From assembly GCA_017860765.1 (NCBI GenBank), contig JAGDMY010000093.1, positions 1 through 6,083 on the forward strand: a stretch of DNA of 6,083 nt, written 5' to 3'. The DNA comes from Chloroflexota bacterium. Lineage in GTDB: Bacteria > Chloroflexota > Dehalococcoidia > Dehalococcoidales > UBA3254. The notes under the pieces were generated by a model. It had not been told where the DNA came from, ran no database searches, and worked only from the letters and a program-made list of their open reading frames with translations. The translations under genes were made by a program, and so were the position numbers. Shown piece by piece: positions 1-6,083 of this stretch (position 1 is the first letter of the stretch; each line of letters begins with the position of its first letter).

Positions 1-1228
1 CCTGGAAGCCACGGGAAAGATCGATTTCATCGACCTCACACTGGCAACTTTCTATAATCTCTATCTGGTAGGCGGCACCATGCATACCCCGCTGGGATAT
101 GGCATCCCTCTGGCAGCCGGCATCAAAGAAGTGGTCAAGCTGCCCGTCTTTGCCACCGGTAGAATCAACGATCCGGTCATGGCGGAAAGGGTTTTAGCGC
201 AGGGTCAGGCCGATATGATCGGCATGGTCCGCGCTCAGATCTGCGACCCTGAAATGGCCAATAAGGCCAAGGAGGGGAGACTGGAGGAGATCCGTTTTTG
301 CGTGGCGGATAACCAGGGATGCTATGGCCGCATGGGGGTCAATAAACTCTTAGGCTGTATGCAAAATCCGGCTGTCGGGTATGAAAAGGAGCAGGGCATT
401 GGGCGCGTTAAGCCCTCGCCTTTAAAGAAAAAGGTTATCATTGTTGGCGGAGGGCCGGCCGGCATGCGGGCGGCGCAGGTTGCCGCCAGGCGAGGACATC
501 AGGTCACCCTCTATGAGAAGAAAGATAGCCTGGGGGGACAGATCAATATCGCCGCACTGGGAGCAGGGAGGGGGGAATTGGCCTCGATCGTGCGTAATGA
601 AGAAAATCAGCTTAAAAGGCTGCCGGTCACCGTTATCTTGAATACAGAGGTCAACGCAGAACTGGTACTCTCGCAAAAGCCGGATGTGGTGATTATCGCG
701 ACCGGTTCCGTGCCTAAAGAAAGTCCTGTACCGGGGGCCAAAGGTCCCCATATCTTTAATGTCTGGCAGGTACTCCTGGGCGCGGCCAACCTGGGAAATA
801 ATGTAGTCCTTGTAGATTATGACGGCCACCATCAGGCTACTTCGACAGCCGAGTTTATGGCAGACCGGGGAAAGAAAGTCCATATCCTTTCCTCTGCCCT
901 GTTCGTCGGCGCTGAACTTGGACCGACCCAGGACTTATATTTAGCCCGCCAGCGGCTGCTGCAGAAGGGCGTTACCTTTACTCCCGACTTTGCCGTGATG
1001 GAGATCGACGGCCTGGATATCAAGGGATTTAACGTCTATTCAAATGAATGGAAAACTTTTTCCGGACATGACTCCATCGTCCTGGCGATGGGGAACCGGG
1101 CGGAGGATACCCTCTATTTTGCCTTGAAGGGCAAGGTCAAGGAGTTATATCGAATTGGGGATTGCGTCGCTCCCCGCAAGATCGACATGGCAATCCTGGA
1201 AGGCGATAGGGTAGGGCGGGCCATCTAA
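1..1228 (+). CDS. FadH/Old Yellow Enzyme-family FMN/FAD/iron-sulfur oxidoreductase, mycofactocin-associated type (5' end missing)
   Basis: The reading frame is open from base 2 to the TAA at 1226-1228, giving 408 residues; the true start lies upstream. FadH-type proteins are usually about 650 residues, so roughly 250 residues, including most of the TIM barrel and its active site, are missing. Seen in the sequence: the end of the OYE barrel with FATGRIND (around residues 51-57) and MVRAQICDPEM, matching the FMN-phosphate region; an iron-sulfur region with Cys100, Cys107 and Cys119; a GGGPAG dinucleotide fold at 149-154; a second nucleotide-binding region beginning VVLVDYDGHH; and a terminal IGDC FAD motif at 385-388. 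Family members pass electrons from NAD(P)H through FAD and a 4Fe-4S cluster to FMN and then to an enone-type substrate; the substrate here is unknown. The expected second cluster cysteine is Asp103. FadH/OYE paralogues are known companions of mycofactocin genes, which fits mftF at the other end of this operon. It could instead be a 2,4-dienoyl-CoA or enoate reductase; the family assignment is firm, the specific role is not. Confidence 0.9.
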   Translation, partial: LEATGKIDFIDLTLATFYNLYLVGGTMHTPLGYGIPLAAGIKEVVKLPVFATGRINDPVMAERVLAQGQADMIGMVRAQICDPEMANKAKEGRLEEIRFCVADNQGCYGRMGVNKLLGCMQNPAVGYEKEQGIGRVKPSPLKKKVIIVGGGPAGMRAAQVAARRGHQVTLYEKKDSLGGQINIAALGAGRGELASIVRNEENQLKRLPVTVILNTEVNAELVLSQKPDVVIIATGSVPKESPVPGAKGPHIFNVWQVLLGAANLGNNVVLVDYDGHHQATSTAEFMADRGKKVHILSSALFVGAELGPTQDLYLARQRLLQKGVTFTPDFAVMEIDGLDIKGFNVYSNEWKTFSGHDSIVLAMGNRAEDTLYFALKGKVKELYRIGDCVAPRKIDMAILEGDRVGRAI

Positions 1229-1267
1229 ATTAAGCCTGGGTGCCGGATCGGGCAAGATGATCGATAT

Positions 1268-1273
1268 AAGGAG
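1268..1273 (+). promoter_or_regulatory. Ribosome binding site of fixB
   Basis: AAGGAG lies 11 bases before a GTG codon at 1285 and supports that non-ATG start for fixB. It sits in the only sizeable gap of the window (1229-1284, 56 bases). I see no convincing promoter boxes or hairpin terminator in that gap, so read-through from the oxidoreductase gene is likely. Confidence 0.7.
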
Positions 1274-1284
1274 AGCTTGTTAGA

Positions 1285-2301
1285 GTGTCCCGGACCAGAG
1301 AAATATGGGTCTTCCCGGAAATAAGCGGCCGGGGGGAAGAGGTCACCAGACTGAGCTATGGTCTGCTCAGCGAGGCGAATTACGTTGCCGATAAGGTAAA
1401 CGGCAGCGTCACTGCGCTGGCTTTGAGCGACTCCGATGAGGGATTGCGCGAGGTCCTGGGAGGGTCTGGCATCTCCGCCGGCCTGATTTTCAAGCATCCA
1501 CTTTTAAGATTCTTTTCGGCTGAGATAGCCGCTCCGCTGCTGGCGGAGAGGGTGCAGAAAGCCCGGCCCTGGCTTTTCCTGATGGGGAACACCACAGCCG
1601 GAAGAGAGCTGGCACCGCTGCTGGCAGCTCTGTTGGGAACAGGGGTGGTCACCAACTGCGTGAAGATGGACCTGTCCGGTCCCGATAAAGTCAAGTTTTA
1701 TCGTCCGATCCTGGGGGGCCAGGCTTATCAGGAGGTCCTTTTTGAGAGTCCGGGAACGATGCTGGTTACCATGGACCCCGGTATATTAAATGTGGCCCCT
1801 GCCTCGCAGTCCGATGTGAATCTCACCGTGATTGAGCCGGAACTGGCAATCAAGGACCCCAGGGTCCAGCATCAGGCCTACTTGCCGGTCGATTTTAAAA
1901 CTATAGACATAGCCGATGCGGAAATAATTGTTTCTGCCGGCGCCGGGGCAGCCGCGGACGACCTGCTGCCCATGGTCGAGGAGCTGGCCGGTCTGCTGGA
2001 GGGGTCTATCGGGACTACCCGGCCGGTAGTGGACGAAGGGAAAATAGCCCGTGATCGTATGATTGGCCAGACGGGCAAGATGGTGAGTCCCGGGCTTTAT
2101 TTGGCATTGGGGATCTCCGGTGCAACCCACCACGTCGGGGGTATTCAGGAATCGCACACGGTGGTCGCTGTCAATCGCGACCCGCAGGCTCCAATTTTCC
2201 AGAATGCGGATGTGGGCGTGGTCGCGGACCTCAAGGCCGTCTTGCCCAAATTGATAGAAAAAATAAGACTGGCTAAAAAGGGCGATGGAAAAACATTTTG
2301 A
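1285..2301 (+). CDS. fixB: Electron transfer flavoprotein alpha subunit, FixB/EtfA family
   Basis: This 338-residue protein is the FAD-binding subunit of a heterodimeric electron transfer flavoprotein and should pair with the beta subunit encoded at 3870-4748. Length is normal for the family. The N-terminal half (about 1-200) is the adenine-nucleotide-hydrolase-like domain shared by both ETF subunits. The C-terminal half carries the classical FAD domain: GQTGK at 261-265, GISGATHHVGG at 276-286, then VVAVNRDPQAPIFQNADVGVVADL, the ETF alpha signature. Translation starts at GTG 1285 behind AAGGAG at 1268-1273. The gene ends in a 17-base overlap with fixC, so translation of the two is probably coupled. 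In family terms ETF accepts electrons from dehydrogenases in the cytoplasm and delivers them to an ETF:quinone oxidoreductase, here FixC. The electron donor cannot be read from this sequence; the operon suggests a mycofactocin-linked enzyme or the upstream OYE-like protein. No key FAD-domain motif looks damaged. Confidence 0.95.
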   Translation: MSRTREIWVFPEISGRGEEVTRLSYGLLSEANYVADKVNGSVTALALSDSDEGLREVLGGSGISAGLIFKHPLLRFFSAEIAAPLLAERVQKARPWLFLMGNTTAGRELAPLLAALLGTGVVTNCVKMDLSGPDKVKFYRPILGGQAYQEVLFESPGTMLVTMDPGILNVAPASQSDVNLTVIEPELAIKDPRVQHQAYLPVDFKTIDIADAEIIVSAGAGAAADDLLPMVEELAGLLEGSIGTTRPVVDEGKIARDRMIGQTGKMVSPGLYLALGISGATHHVGGIQESHTVVAVNRDPQAPIFQNADVGVVADLKAVLPKLIEKIRLAKKGDGKTF

Positions 2302-3583
2302 TGTTATCATAGTAGGGGCCGGTCCGGCAGGGAGCGTGGCCGCTCTTAAGCTGGCCCGGGCCGGTCTAAAGCCTGCCCTGTTGGAGCGAGGGCCCCATCC
2401 CGGATCGAAGAATATCTTTGGTGGGCTGCTGCACAATGCCCCGGTCTTAAACGAGATCTTTCCCGCTTTCTGGGAAAAAGCTCCGCTGGAGAGACATGTC
2501 TATAAAAAGACCCTCTCTTTTATGACGCCGGGGTCTTCGGTCAATATGACCTTTGAAACCGAGAACTTCGAAAAAACTCCCTACAACGGCTATACAGTAA
2601 TGCGCCCAATTTTCGATCACTGGCTGGCTGAGGAAGCCGTCAAAGCCGGGGCCGTCCTGCTCTGCAATTGCACCGCGGATAATTTAATAAAAGAGGAAGG
2701 CCGGGTGGCCGGCGTGACAGTTAAGGGGCGGGAGGGGGAGTTGAGGGGCAATATCGTAATAGCCGCGGACGGGGTCCTCTCCTTTATGGCGGAAAAGGCC
2801 GGACTGCGCCAGGTGATAGCGCCGGGGCACATGGGCCTGGGCGTTAAGCTTTTGCTGGGAATGCCCCGGGAGGTTATCAACGAGAGGTTTGGTCTGGCTA
2901 AAGATGAGGGTGCGGACTACAGCCTGCTGGGTGTGACGGAAGGGTTGCGGGGAGGCGGCTTTATGTATACCAATAATGAGAGTATTTCGGTGGGGCTGGT
3001 GGTCCATCTCGACTCCTTGAAGGCTTCCGGCAAAACCCCATATGATATCTTGAACCGGGCCCTGCAACAGCCGCAGCTGAGGAAACTGGTCAAAGGAGGA
3101 GTCCCCCTGGAGTATTCGGCGCACCTGGTTCCGGAAGGCGGCGTGAAAGGTATTCCGCGGCTTTACACCGGCGGAATGCTGGTGATCGGCGACGCCGCCG
3201 GCCTGTGTTATACCAATGGCATCAATCTGGAGGGAATTAACCTGGCCATGACTTCAGGGGCGCTGGCGGCCGAGTGCGCCCTGGAGGCTATCCGGGCCAA
3301 GGACTTTAGCGCCCGTAGGCTCTCCGAATATAAAAGAAAATTGGAGAAAAGCTTCATCCTCAAAGATATGCTCACTTTTAAGCACGCGGTCGACATGATG
3401 CATATCGATCGTTTATTCGAGGATTATCCCGACCTGGCCTGCCGCGTGCTGGAGAGGATATATCGCGTCGATGGGGTCCCCCGGGATAAGATGCTGAAGC
3501 TGTTGCGAAAGGAAGCCAGGGGAAGAGTGAAAACCCGGGATTTGCTATCCGATGGCTTCAAAATAGGCAGGGCTTTACTATGA
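2285..3583 (+). CDS. fixC: FAD-dependent ETF:quinone oxidoreductase-like protein FixC
   Basis: The 432-residue product has the length of FixC proteins. It opens with the FAD dinucleotide fold FDVIIVGAGPAGSVAA (GAGPAG at 11-16) followed by LLERG, and carries the second FAD motif IGDAAGLCYTNGINLEG around 301-317, both typical of the ETF-QO/FixC family. It lacks the C-terminal ferredoxin domain of full ETF-QO; that part is supplied by the separate fixX gene directly downstream. The known role of the family is to take electrons from FixAB and, with FixX, reduce a quinone at the membrane; in bifurcating systems FixX supports ferredoxin or flavodoxin reduction elsewhere in the complex. No membrane-spanning segment is evident, so any membrane contact would be peripheral. 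The ATG at 2285 lies within the end of fixB (17-base overlap), with only an AAAAAGGG run very close to the start, so translational coupling is likely. It overlaps fixX by four bases (ATGA). Geranylgeranyl reductase-like flavoproteins share the fold, but the flanking fixB and fixX settle the assignment. Confidence 0.94.
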   Translation: MEKHFDVIIVGAGPAGSVAALKLARAGLKPALLERGPHPGSKNIFGGLLHNAPVLNEIFPAFWEKAPLERHVYKKTLSFMTPGSSVNMTFETENFEKTPYNGYTVMRPIFDHWLAEEAVKAGAVLLCNCTADNLIKEEGRVAGVTVKGREGELRGNIVIAADGVLSFMAEKAGLRQVIAPGHMGLGVKLLLGMPREVINERFGLAKDEGADYSLLGVTEGLRGGGFMYTNNESISVGLVVHLDSLKASGKTPYDILNRALQQPQLRKLVKGGVPLEYSAHLVPEGGVKGIPRLYTGGMLVIGDAAGLCYTNGINLEGINLAMTSGALAAECALEAIRAKDFSARRLSEYKRKLEKSFILKDMLTFKHAVDMMHIDRLFEDYPDLACRVLERIYRVDGVPRDKMLKLLRKEARGRVKTRDLLSDGFKIGRALL

Positions 3584-3858
3584 TTAACATCGAAGAATTG
3601 ACCCAGTACACCAGATTTGACCCCGATGAACAGTCTCATATCATTTTGAGCAAGGAAATCTGCCGCACCTGCGAACACCGGGCCTGTGTCCAGTCCTGTC
3701 CGGCTAATTGCTACACCTTCAACGAAGAGACCGGGCGGCTGGATGTGGTCTATGAGAACTGCCTGGAGTGCGGCACCTGTTATGTTATTTGTGAGAAAAA
3801 GGCGGTAGACTGGACCTACCCCCGGGGCGGGTACGGGGTCTTTTATCGGCTGAGTTGA
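3580..3858 (+). CDS. fixX: Ferredoxin-like protein FixX
   Basis: This 92-residue cysteine-rich protein is the iron-sulfur partner of FixC. Two cysteine groups are visible: C28-x2-C31-x4-C36-x3-C40-Pro, and C61-x2-C64-x2-C67-x3-C71, plus an extra Cys44. The second group, in the context CLECGTC, is the classical 4Fe-4S motif. The first is a slightly widened version (four rather than two residues between the second and third Cys), which could still bind a second cluster. The ending DWTYPRGGYGVFYRLS is the characteristic FixX/ETF-QO C-terminal signature, so this is not a generic ferredoxin. Its start codon overlaps the fixC stop in an ATGA arrangement, preceded by the purine-rich AGGCAGGG at 3565-3572. 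By family knowledge it should relay electrons from FixC to the quinone or act as a ferredoxin-like carrier. All eight ligand candidates are intact. Confidence 0.94.
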   Translation: MINIEELTQYTRFDPDEQSHIILSKEICRTCEHRACVQSCPANCYTFNEETGRLDVVYENCLECGTCYVICEKKAVDWTYPRGGYGVFYRLS

Positions 3859-3869
3859 CGGAATTGGGA

Positions 3870-4748
3870 ATGAAAATAGCAGTTTGTTTGAAAGAAGTAA
3901 TCGATACCGGTCTTAACCTGGGCTACGGGCAGGTGAGCGAAGCTTTGCTGCGAAAAGGACAATCCTCCCGTCTAAATCCGAATGATGCCCAGGCTCTGGC
4001 TCAAGCAATAAAATTTAAAGAGGTCCACTCTCAAACTGAGATAACAGTAGTGTCGCTGGGTCCGGGCAGGGTCGAAACCTATCTGAGGGACGGGCTGGCC
4101 GCGGGGGCCGACCGGGCTATAAGGGTCTGGGAAGAAGGCCTGGCCGATTTATCGCCCTATCAGAAATCAAAAGTACTATCAGGGGCTTTAGCTTTGGCGG
4201 GTTCCGACCTGATACTGGTAGGAGCCAGAAGCCTGGACAACGCCAGCGGCCTGGTGGGGCCTCTTATGGCAGCCTGGCTGGACATGCCATGCATCTGTGA
4301 GACAGTAGCTTTCGCACTCGAAAAGGACCAGGGGATGACGGTTACCCGGAACTTTAGCAAGGGAATGCAGGAGAGGGTACTCTGCAGGCTGCCGGCAGTC
4401 CTCGCCGTAGCCGGCGGCCGGGAAAACTTGCCCTATGCTTCTCTGGAGAAGATCATGGAGGGCCAGGCGGCCCGGATCATCTGCTATTCGCTGGCAGATA
4501 TAGGAGTCTCTCCCGGAGAGCTGAAAAATGATCCGACCCGGATAAGCGGGGTCTCCTTCCCCAGGCCCAGACCAAAGGCCGCCCCCTATGATGCCTCGCT
4601 GCCGGCCTTTTACCGTATCCTGGCTTTGCTTGAGGGCGGTATCTCCAGGAGGCGCGGTGAAATACTCAAGGGCGATATCGATGCGGTAGTCAATCAGCTC
4701 TTCGAATTGCTGATAAAAGAAGGAGTCATCAAAAGCTCGGCAAAATAA
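3870..4748 (+). CDS. fixA: Electron transfer flavoprotein beta subunit, FixA/EtfB family
   Basis: The 292-residue product begins MKIAVCLKEVIDTG, the standard ETF beta opening. It continues with LNPNDAQALAQAIKFKE and VVSLGPGRVETYLRDGLAAGADRAIRV, typical of the nucleotide-binding domain. GARSLDNASGLVGPLMAAWLDMP corresponds to the conserved loop that in other ETFs contacts AMP or, in bifurcating forms, a second FAD. The segment RLPAVLAVAGGRENLPYASLEKIMEG matches the ETF beta signature region. I chose the ATG at 3870, 11 bases after the fixX stop, because it gives the conserved N-terminus; a TTG at 3855 overlapping the fixX stop would add five residues (MTELG) and cannot be excluded. Neither start has a strong Shine-Dalgarno sequence. 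The protein should form a heterodimer with the alpha subunit encoded 1.6 kb upstream. The separation of beta from alpha, with fixA last, is unusual. FixA proteins of FixABCX systems can bifurcate electrons from NADH; whether this one does cannot be told by eye. Confidence 0.94.
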   Translation: MKIAVCLKEVIDTGLNLGYGQVSEALLRKGQSSRLNPNDAQALAQAIKFKEVHSQTEITVVSLGPGRVETYLRDGLAAGADRAIRVWEEGLADLSPYQKSKVLSGALALAGSDLILVGARSLDNASGLVGPLMAAWLDMPCICETVAFALEKDQGMTVTRNFSKGMQERVLCRLPAVLAVAGGRENLPYASLEKIMEGQAARIICYSLADIGVSPGELKNDPTRISGVSFPRPRPKAAPYDASLPAFYRILALLEGGISRRRGEILKGDIDAVVNQLFELLIKEGVIKSSAK

Positions 4749-6083
4749 TGAGCGGATTCGCTTTTAAGCTGGCGCCAAACACCTACCTCGAAAACAACCC
4801 TCAAGGCTTTTTCCTGGTCTCCAGATCACCTATCAGGACGCTCCGGGTAAACGAGTCCCTTTTCTCTGTACTTCAAATGCTCCAGGATCCCCGACCGACT
4901 GCCGAATTAGTTCAGCAATATCCCGGGACAAAAGAGGACCAGCTAATACCGGTCCTGCTATCTTTGACCTATAGAGGATATTGCCGTTTGGAAAAAACGG
5001 CCGATATTGAGACCTCTCCCCGGGTCTCGGTGATTATTCCCTTCCGCAATTCCTCCCGGGACCTGGTTCAGTGTCTGGAATCGTTGGCCGGACTGGACTA
5101 TCCCCGGGATAGATTAGAGGTCCTGGCAGTGGAGGATGGTGCCTCTGAGGATTCACCGGACTTATCGGCCTTCGATGTAAAGATGATAAGACTGGACCAG
5201 GCCAGGGGACCGGGAGCCGCCAGAAACGCCGGAGCGGAAAAGTCCGCCGGAGATATACTGGCCTTTTTGGACGCCGACTGCATAGCAGATAAAAACTGGC
5301 TAAAAGAGACCGTACCGTTTTTAGGGATCGGAGGAATGGGGGCGGTGGGGGGGTTCGTGGAAGGCTATTACAAGAAAAGGTCTTTAGACCGCTATGAGGC
5401 GGTCTCCTCTTCTCTCAACCTGGGACCGCGAATCCTCTTTGAAGGTGATTCGGAATCCAATTTCTACGTGCCCACCTGTAACCTGCTGGTCAACCGCCAG
5501 GTTTTTCAGGAGACCGGCGGGTTTAAAGAAGGCTGGCGGGTAGGAGAAGACGTCGACTTCTGCTGGCGAATGAGAAGCCGGGGATGGACACTGCTCTATA
5601 TACCGGCTGGAAAGGTGGCTCACAAGCACCGCAACCGCTTGCTGCCAATGCTGCGCCGCAGGGGCGCCTACGGGACCTCTGAGGCTGCCCTTTACCGGTC
5701 GCACAGGGAGAAGAGGAAGCGGTTTCTGATTCCGGTCTGGGCGGCCCTGTCTTTTATGGCTCTGGCGGTGGCCATTCTAATGCAAAATCCCTATCCCCTG
5801 GCCCTGCTGCCAATTTTTGCGGGAATCGACCTGTGGCGGAAATCGGGCGCACTCAAGCGGTTCGGGATAGTTTTCCCATTTAGCCGGATAATCGCCTCTA
5901 CTCTCCGAACTCATTTTTCCTTTTATTATTTCACTTCCTTTCATCTGGTACGCTATTATTTGATATTGCTCCTGGGGCTGGGTTTTCTTTTCCATCCCCT
6001 TTTTTTCCTGTGTATTTTTATGCTCCTGCTAACCTCTGCGGTAGACTATGCCGTAAAAAAGCCCCGCCTGCTGTATCCAGTTT
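4748..6083 (+). CDS. mftF: Mycofactocin glycosyltransferase MftF (3' end missing)
   Basis: The frame is open from the ATG at 4748 to the window end, giving 445 residues; characterised MftF proteins are about 470, so only a short tail is probably missing. Residues 1-90 form a small N-terminal domain with a PqqD-like look (NPQGFFLVSRSPIRTLRVNE, then a helical part). A GT2 catalytic domain runs from about 92 to 300: VSVIIPFRN at 93-101, an Asp at 130 in VEDG, the metal-binding DAD at 175-177, and GEDVDFCWR at 266-274. HKHR at 292-295 and YGTSEAA at 308-314 follow, a combination typical of MftF. Hydrophobic stretches at about 326-360 and 403-432 suggest membrane association, with the catalytic domain cytoplasmic. 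In mycobacteria MftF attaches a chain of glucose units to the mycofactocin redox core. The start overlaps the fixA stop by one base (TAATG), so translation is probably coupled. An AAGGAG at 4720-4725 is too far upstream to be an ideal ribosome site. A generic membrane GT2 is the alternative, but the motif set and the OYE/ETF neighbours favour MftF. Confidence 0.85.
   Translation, partial: MSGFAFKLAPNTYLENNPQGFFLVSRSPIRTLRVNESLFSVLQMLQDPRPTAELVQQYPGTKEDQLIPVLLSLTYRGYCRLEKTADIETSPRVSVIIPFRNSSRDLVQCLESLAGLDYPRDRLEVLAVEDGASEDSPDLSAFDVKMIRLDQARGPGAARNAGAEKSAGDILAFLDADCIADKNWLKETVPFLGIGGMGAVGGFVEGYYKKRSLDRYEAVSSSLNLGPRILFEGDSESNFYVPTCNLLVNRQVFQETGGFKEGWRVGEDVDFCWRMRSRGWTLLYIPAGKVAHKHRNRLLPMLRRRGAYGTSEAALYRSHREKRKRFLIPVWAALSFMALAVAILMQNPYPLALLPIFAGIDLWRKSGALKRFGIVFPFSRIIASTLRTHFSFYYFTSFHLVRYYLILLLGLGFLFHPLFFLCIFMLLLTSAVDYAVKKPRLLYPV

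Follow-up and report, generated by a model that had tools for sequence, protein, structure and literature searches.

Mycofactocin biosynthesis has been described for the canonical mftABCDEF(G) cluster of mycobacteria and Rhodococcus. In M. smegmatis, MftD carries out the oxidative deamination of the lactam AHDP, deletion of mftD abolishes mycofactocin and causes AHDP to accumulate, deletion of mftE only lowers the amount of mycofactocin, and the potential given for premycofactocin (PMFT) is -255 mV (PMC7491314). Because the mftD deletion abolishes mycofactocin, producers devoid of MftD need a substitute for it; because the strain without mftE still makes the cofactor, the absence of MftE argues only weakly for a different product. 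Haft had noted in 2011 (PMC3023750) that neither the MftD nor the MftE family is universal, and the enzyme serving the roughly 25% of MftC genomes without MftG is called an open question in the MftG paper (PMC11778925). Here we describe a 6,083-nucleotide stretch of a Chloroflexota genome (assembly GCA_017860765.1, contig JAGDMY010000093.1; hereafter the window) in which a gene for an old yellow enzyme (OYE)-type oxidoreductase and a full set of genes for an electron transfer flavoprotein (ETF) and its quinone oxidoreductase (FixC, FixX) run into mftF. MftD is needed in M. smegmatis, yet 42 of the 74 MftC genomes drawn in this study have no MftD over cut-off; the operon offers specific, testable candidate enzymes for this gap and for that left by MftG. 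We favor, at a probability of roughly 55%, the reading that a mycofactocin-dedicated chain leading from an OYE dehydrogenase through the ETF to quinone replaces MftD and may also reoxidize mycofactocinol, a reading in which we infer the substrate, the direction of electron flow and the contacts between partners.

The operon in the window and in its relatives

The window carries six co-directional genes of the kinds and in the places proposed by an earlier, sequence-only reading of this DNA:

2..1228, + strand: OYE/FadH oxidoreductase, 3' two thirds, cut at the 5' end (best family TIGR03997, mycofactocin-type)
1285..2301, + strand: etfA/fixB, ETF alpha subunit with FAD domain, GTG start (Pfam; mycofactocin-linked side of the EtfA tree)
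2285..3583, + strand: fixC, probable ETF:quinone oxidoreductase flavoprotein (Pfam; nearest solved relative 7koe_C)
3580..3858, + strand: fixX, ferredoxin-like subunit (Pfam; nearest solved relative 7koe_D)
3855..4748, + strand: etfB/fixA, ETF beta subunit, TTG start with an in-frame ATG at 3870 (Pfam)
4748..6082, + strand: mftF, mycofactocin glycosyltransferase, 3' end cut by the window (TIGR03965)

A gap of 56 bp separates the OYE gene from etfA, after which successive genes overlap by 17, 4, 4 and 1 bp; the fix genes stand in the order B-C-X-A, not A-B-C-X. The glycosyltransferase falls within the MftF family, with 304.5 bits against a curated cut-off of 280 (TIGR03965) despite its 3' truncation. 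By far the best family for the visible 408 aa of the OYE is TIGR03997 (524 bits; curated cut-off 793), named by NCBI 'mycofactocin system FadH/OYE oxidoreductase 2', and the full-length OYE of a relative (L003; L-numbers denote compared loci and G-numbers compared genomes) reaches 929.7 bits. Pfam gathering scores are reached by EtfA for ETF (PF01012) and ETF_alpha (PF00766), by EtfB for ETF (PF01012) and by FixX for Fer4_ETF_QO; the nine cysteines of FixX, counted by eye, would be enough for two 4Fe-4S clusters. FixC scores 30.8 with ETFQO_UQ-bd (PF21162; gathering score 27.7), matches 7koe_C at 5.3e-82 and lies under the NCBIfam cut-offs of PRK10015 and PRK10157. Where an organism is named for one of the 120 best MftF relatives, it belongs to the Dehalococcoidia or elsewhere in the Chloroflexota, and in the EtfA tree the window sits inside an eight-row group (100/99) in which every named row comes from Dehalococcoidia or Chloroflexi. 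We read the window as part of a variant mycofactocin operon from an uncultured Dehalococcoidia-like bacterium.

Among the 12 nearest loci (L001-L012), seven show the whole OYE-EtfA-FixC-FixX-EtfB-MftF order (the EtfB of L007 being found as two tblastn pieces) and four agree with it up to the end of their contig; L008 begins in MftF and is uninformative. With such agreement, the arrangement is not a product of chance. The genes mftA, mftB and mftC lie outside the window, and the upstream order was read from the four relatives long enough to show it (L003, L004, L007, L011). In each of these, an Fe-dependent alcohol-dehydrogenase-like gene, over no NCBIfam cut-off, is followed by mftA (with a product ending in CGVY), mftB, mftC, the OYE gene, etfA, fixC, fixX, etfB and mftF, so that the core mycofactocin genes do accompany the set; a second radical SAM/SPASM protein is encoded after mftF in L003, L004 and L007, not in L011.

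The linkage recurs well beyond these relatives. None of the three findings that the sequence-only reading had named as refuting it therefore came about: the relatives do have mftA, mftB and mftC, the linkage is seen in other genomes, and the glycosyltransferase is an MftF. Related sets were found in distant loci of Pelotomaculum (L014), Formimonas (L016, L033) and Actinomycetota (L019, L024, L029) as well as in L037, with the Bacillota loci holding two OYEs and placing mftB-mftC after etfB, and the OYE-ETF unit is recurrent in Chloroflexota, Bacillota, Actinomycetota and Desulfobacterota. In L198, L199, L202 and similar loci, the order is mftC-mftD-mftE-mftF; the module sits between mftC and mftE (L161-L164) or between mftC and mftF (L003), that is, in the place of mftD. 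In six Chloroflexota genomes of the draw described below (G100, G109, G118, G158, G166, G198), OYE-etfA-fixC-fixX lie apart from mftC with some intervening DNA, accompanied by etfB in five of the six; where module and mftC share a contig (G100, G118, G198), about 155 kb separate them.

Distribution of the module against MftD, MftE and MftG

Genomes were drawn from the four phyla of G003, G014, G030 and G019, named here Chloroflexota, Bacillota, Desulfobacterota and Actinomycetota after the records of L003, L014, L030 and L019 (400, 299, 297 and 296 genomes), of which 20, 4, 14 and 36, respectively, encode MftC over cut-off, giving 74 in all; G806, G842 and G990, with MftC under cut-off, are not among them and their loci (L194-L196) were dropped. 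Presence of OYE (TIGR03997), MftD (TIGR03966) and MftG (TIGR03970) means a score over the curated cut-off; for MftG, TIGR03970 was the only model used, PMC11778925 naming two more. OYE and MftD are mutually exclusive in these genomes: none has both, 38 have OYE only, 32 have MftD only and four have neither (Fisher p=6.6e-17, kinship ignored). Four draw centers chosen for having the locus are counted within the 38, and without them OYE-only genomes number 34 of 70. The exclusion holds within Chloroflexota (both/OYE/MftD/neither, 0/14/4/2; p=0.0031) and within Actinomycetota (0/8/28/0; p=3.3e-08). OYE scores separate the two classes, the best in any MftD genome of the draw being 562 bits and that in every OYE genome at least 792. 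Two of the genomes with neither protein do contain incomplete pieces: in G860 an OYE-EtfA-cytochrome-CCG unit is cut by the contig, and G086 has a truncated piece of an OYE. In the tree of MftC (77 rows, with a warning for long branches that meet, and without L229, which has no MftC row over our own threshold), the MftD/OYE label changes seven times, at least six of these changes being forced by supported branches; G1322 (OYE), for example, stands beside G1141 (MftD) at 100/100. The presence of the module in genomes without MftD suggests a second way to make or recharge mycofactocin.

Within 12 kb of an OYE, 33 of the 38 OYE genomes have an ETF gene, 26 have FixC and six an ETF:(methyl)menaquinone oxidoreductase (EMO)-like protein, a count that leaves out the weak and different CCG protein of G014, the seventh found near an OYE. 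Five genomes show no ETF near the OYE: in G574 and G709 the contig ends, in G969 FixC is present but no ETF was called, and the other two are G1130 and G1226. The mftC loci fetched for the 32 MftD genomes showed no ETF, FixC or EMO-like protein. MftE occurs in seven of the 38 loci of OYE genomes. Neither MftD nor MftE is over cut-off in any of 22 non-Rhodococcus genomes, not all of which have the module, and MftD, MftE and MftG are all under cut-off in the complete chromosome of Ca. Formimonas.

The sequence-only reading had cast the fixABCX set, with or without the OYE, as a replacement for MftG. In its fuller form this explanation holds that reduced mycofactocin coming from alcohol dehydrogenases is reoxidized by the OYE, or directly by the ETF, and drained to menaquinone in MftG's stead, turnover being the only task of the chain. 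Electron flow from mycofactocinol, at the potential of PMFT, to menaquinone, at -74 mV (PMC10734219), would be downhill, a respiratory chain suits a high-flux role, the alcohol-dehydrogenase-like gene of the four long relatives lies just upstream of mftA, and the unassigned enzyme of the MftG-less genomes leaves room for such a function. A search of 48 non-Rhodococcus genomes that carry an MftF-like locus gave no MftG over cut-off (TIGR03970), with the qualification that four of them encode GMC proteins of more distant kinship (at best 244 bits against 387). What speaks against this explanation is that the module tracks the absence of MftD, not that of MftG. MftG is over cut-off in only seven of the 66 MftC genomes searched as one set, all seven with MftD, and in none of the other eight, searched in another set; 25 MftD genomes have neither MftG nor OYE (24 if an MftG-like gene in the locus of G1326, with 410 bits to our own profile and 149 bits to TIGR03970, is counted). 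The anticorrelation of OYE with MftG (p=0.0046 overall) vanishes within Chloroflexota (p=1) and Actinomycetota (p=0.31), where that with MftD persists, and turnover leaves the MftD step without a known enzyme. A simple replacement of MftG is rejected on this distribution. Turnover as the sole role of the chain appears unlikely to us; we keep it as a rival because a dedicated respiratory chain fits high-flux turnover better.

Nor does the link to an anaerobic lifestyle made in the same reading explain the pattern. Genes of the COX1 family, a Pfam family that also covers NO reductases, occur in 26 genomes of each class, out of 38 with OYE and 32 with MftD; being common in both classes alike, they lead us to reject an explanation by anaerobiosis only. 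Six Actinomycetota genomes of the draw (G1050, G1080, G1092, G1115, G1137, G1275) combine MftC and MftD with no COX1-family match at E 1e-30, which is odd if MftD uses oxygen.

The OYE-type protein and its route to the quinone pool

The visible part of the window's OYE comprises the end of an FMN barrel, a 4Fe-4S motif and an FAD domain, and its second nucleotide motif reads D-x-D-G where GxGxxG is expected. Its best solved relatives are NCR (6qkg), which we take to be 2-naphthoyl-CoA reductase, and FadH, and the trimethylamine dehydrogenase (TMADH) entries 1o94 and 1o95 are among the solved relatives of both the OYE and the ETF. In the OYE alignment, from which rows outside 600-720 aa were left out, the window excepted, the position of the FadH catalytic Tyr holds Ser in 90 of 90 letters (the window does not extend to that region) and the FadH His column holds His in 20 of 91 rows; we assume these residues to be Tyr166 and His252 in the FadH numbering. 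The NADPH-binding GxGxxG is missing in 90 of 91 rows, the sole exception being the second OYE-like row of L019, and it is likewise missing in TMADH. An ordinary dienoyl-CoA reductase is rejected on the missing catalytic Tyr and NADPH motif.

These relatives bear on the explanation that a passenger catabolic set, devoted to enoyl/dienoyl-CoA or acyl-CoA metabolism, has come to lie in the operon by chance. OYE/FadH proteins, ETFs and FixC relatives do act in beta-oxidation or enoyl reduction elsewhere, and NCR and FadH head the solved relatives of the OYE. A passenger would hardly recur with mft genes in all four drawn phyla and be mutually exclusive with MftD in the draws, and the OYE lacks the FadH residues needed for such a role. 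EtfA, too, stands on a branch of its own: as the sequence-only reading had suggested it might, one branch (96/88) splits 45 EtfA rows of mycofactocin loci from 12 unlinked ones of such genomes, 57 of 60 EtfA having entered the tree (length) and the unlinked EtfA coming from 30 loci only, a limited sample. This explanation is very improbable.

TMADH and histamine dehydrogenase, both of the OYE superfamily, are amine dehydrogenases, and TMADH donates its electrons to an ETF. By analogy, an amine-dehydrogenase-like OYE delivering electrons by way of an ETF to quinone would be a chemically sensible substitute for MftD. In the mechanism that we propose, the OYE-type FMN/4Fe-4S protein would oxidize a compound of the mycofactocin pathway and pass the electrons to a dedicated ETF, much as TMADH feeds its own, and from there through FixC/FixX to menaquinone. 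Its first job would most likely be the MftD step, in which AHDP formed through MftC is oxidatively deaminated to give the redox-active ketoamide, the electrons ending up on quinone. Possibly, mycofactocinol is reoxidized through the same OYE-ETF-quinone chain, and a double role in the MftD step and in turnover is likely.

The type of the ETF bears on whether the set could instead bifurcate electrons to ferredoxin, as the sequence-only reading had allowed. FixABCX would then supply low-potential electrons, via ferredoxin or flavodoxin, to the radical SAM enzyme MftC and the second radical SAM protein of the operon. One or two radical SAM proteins are indeed encoded in the operon, and EtfABCX of Thermotoga maritima (7koe), bifurcating according to PMC10734219, ranks first or second among the solved relatives of EtfA, FixC and FixX. 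The solved relatives of EtfB are headed by 5ol2, with 1o94, the TMADH ETF, in second place. A loop reading DGDTAQVG or DGDTGQVG in 5ol2, 6fah, 4kpu and 7koe, which we take to be bifurcating ETFs, reads DNASGLVG in the window, and the DGD motif is present in none of 52 mycofactocin-linked EtfB proteins and in two of 13 unlinked ones; given its absence from all 52, bifurcation is not supported, and as a default it is rejected on this motif. By our own calculation from -255, -74 and -450 mV, bifurcation driven by mycofactocinol would come out about even, and MftD-type loci hold MftC without a FixABCX set. Together with the exchange of FixCX described next, these points make a bifurcating role very improbable.

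In six Desulfobacterota loci (L030, L034, L035, L038, L031, L022), and in part in two more (L028, L040), fixC-fixX are replaced between etfA and etfB by genes for a multihaem cytochrome c and an EMO-like protein, about 640 aa long, that combines a NarI-like membrane domain with Fer4 ferredoxin clusters and CCG domains; other Desulfobacterota (G037, G768, G772, G969, G1029) have kept FixC. The best solved relative of the EMO-like protein is 9ojn, an 'iron-sulfur-binding reductase' (E 1.8e-103), and mycobacterial EtfD is a relative of the EMO type. EMO takes electrons from reduced ETF to methylmenaquinone (PMC8805022), which also counts against bifurcation. Two unrelated quinone oxidoreductases thus occupy one slot, suggesting that what is needed is ETF-to-quinone transfer and not one particular protein. 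The electron outlet to the quinone pool put forward from the window alone is plausible for this recurrent, mycofactocin-linked ETF with its quinone oxidoreductase, be it FixCX or EMO-like. The multihaem cytochrome c gene lies between etfA and the EMO-like gene (L030:6206-7024 and equivalents), which may mean that cytochromes of the periplasm also receive these electrons in some Desulfobacterota.

Several observations weigh against a replacement of MftD by the OYE-ETF chain. That OYE and MftD can occur in one genome is shown by Rhodococcus (G049, G050), which combines the two OYEs with MftD, MftE and MftG and lacks an ETF in the locus. In G1130 and G1226, OYEs are present with neither MftD nor a nearby ETF, the tested neighbors of the G1226 OYE being unrelated and those in G1130 having been scanned with our own profiles only. 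Four loci (L020, L025, L042, L043) hold mftB-mftC-mftF with no OYE or ETF in the fetched flanks, and three of these genomes (G020, G025, G042), not searched for OYE as a whole, have no MftD over cut-off. On the protein itself, Cys30, to which FMN is covalently bound in TMADH, is not conserved in the OYE rows (the window does not reach that region), and the second Cys of the 4Fe-4S site is kept in 72 of 91 rows and replaced by Asp in 19, one of them the window's. A four-gene respiratory chain, moreover, seems much for a low-flux biosynthetic step, which favors a role in turnover. Finally, the Fisher tests ignore kinship, the draw centers were chosen for having the locus, and many of the compared genomes are incomplete metagenome assemblies, although the complete chromosome of Ca. 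Formimonas shows the same pattern.

The 4Fe-4S motif of the window's OYE, C-x2-D-x3-C-x14-C at 299-358, reads C-V-A-D-N-Q-G-C at its first part, from which a Cys3Asp cluster would result. Between its two OYEs, Rhodococcus encodes a mycofactocin-coupled SDR (L049:4938-5759; TIGR03971, 360 bits). Many loci of Dehalococcoidia and Desulfobacterota have the second radical SAM/SPASM protein (381-396 aa; L003:10218-11408, L030:11593-12738) after mftF, and a Spirochaetes locus (L018) has it too; the two copies tested are over no NCBIfam cut-off. A further MftC-like protein is encoded downstream near mftF in Desulfobacterota loci L021, L022, L023, L026, L027, L030 and L032. Its scores with our own MftC profile, 308-364 bits, lie below those of the MftC found upstream in most module loci (about 425 or more), and it is possibly a third radical SAM enzyme.

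Comparison with described systems

Parts of the set are already named by NCBIfam, and we found no paper on the OYE-ETF-FixCX set. Its mycofactocin ETF models (NF038209, TIGR04503) and OYE models 1 and 2 (TIGR03996, TIGR03997) describe like proteins from a like locus; they state no function, and the hits of FixC, FixX and the EMO-like protein included no mycofactocin model. The EtfA of an actinobacterial locus (L206) exceeds the NF038209 cut-off (343 against 240 bits), from which it follows that the curators had noticed the ETF-mycofactocin link. EtfA of the window (152.2 bits) lies under that cut-off, as do seven of seven non-actinobacterial EtfA proteins tested (L003, L014, L030, L037, L161, L166, L261), and EtfB of the window (76.3 bits) lies under that of TIGR04503 (mft_etfB; 200). 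Searches of the open-access literature gave no paper pairing mycofactocin with 'electron transfer flavoprotein' or 'ETF', and among the matches listed for FadH, old yellow enzyme, EtfB and FixABCX terms, one names mycofactocin (PMC7913881), as a family name only.

Taken together, the data invite a broader proposal, to which we give slightly less than even odds: mycofactocin may have two interchangeable completions, one by the FMN enzyme MftD and the other by a TMADH-like OYE whose private ETF reaches the quinone pool via either of two unrelated quinone oxidoreductases. The second would be found in all four drawn phyla, with at least six exchanges on the MftC tree, and the same chain would recharge the cofactor, coupling it directly to respiration without MftG.

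With the canonical mycobacterial and Rhodococcus cluster, the relatives of the window share mftA (CGVY), mftB, mftC and mftF, and the window itself mftF; they differ from it in that the module genomes have no MftD or MftG over cut-off and carry OYE-ETF-FixCX at the place of mftD. T. maritima EtfABCX has all four subunits in common with the window, whereas the order of the window is B-C-X-A, its EtfB does not conserve the bifurcation motif and its partners are an OYE and mycofactocin genes. The protein that substitutes for FixCX in Desulfobacterota resembles EMO with its NarI-like, Fer4 and CCG domains, and differs in being encoded between etfA and etfB of a mycofactocin locus in the company of a multihaem cytochrome c. 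TMADH and histamine dehydrogenase, lastly, share with the OYE their superfamily, their domain order and the missing NADPH GxGxxG; in contrast to TMADH, the OYE scores nearer to NCR and FadH and conserves neither Cys30 nor the Tyr common to TMADH and FadH.

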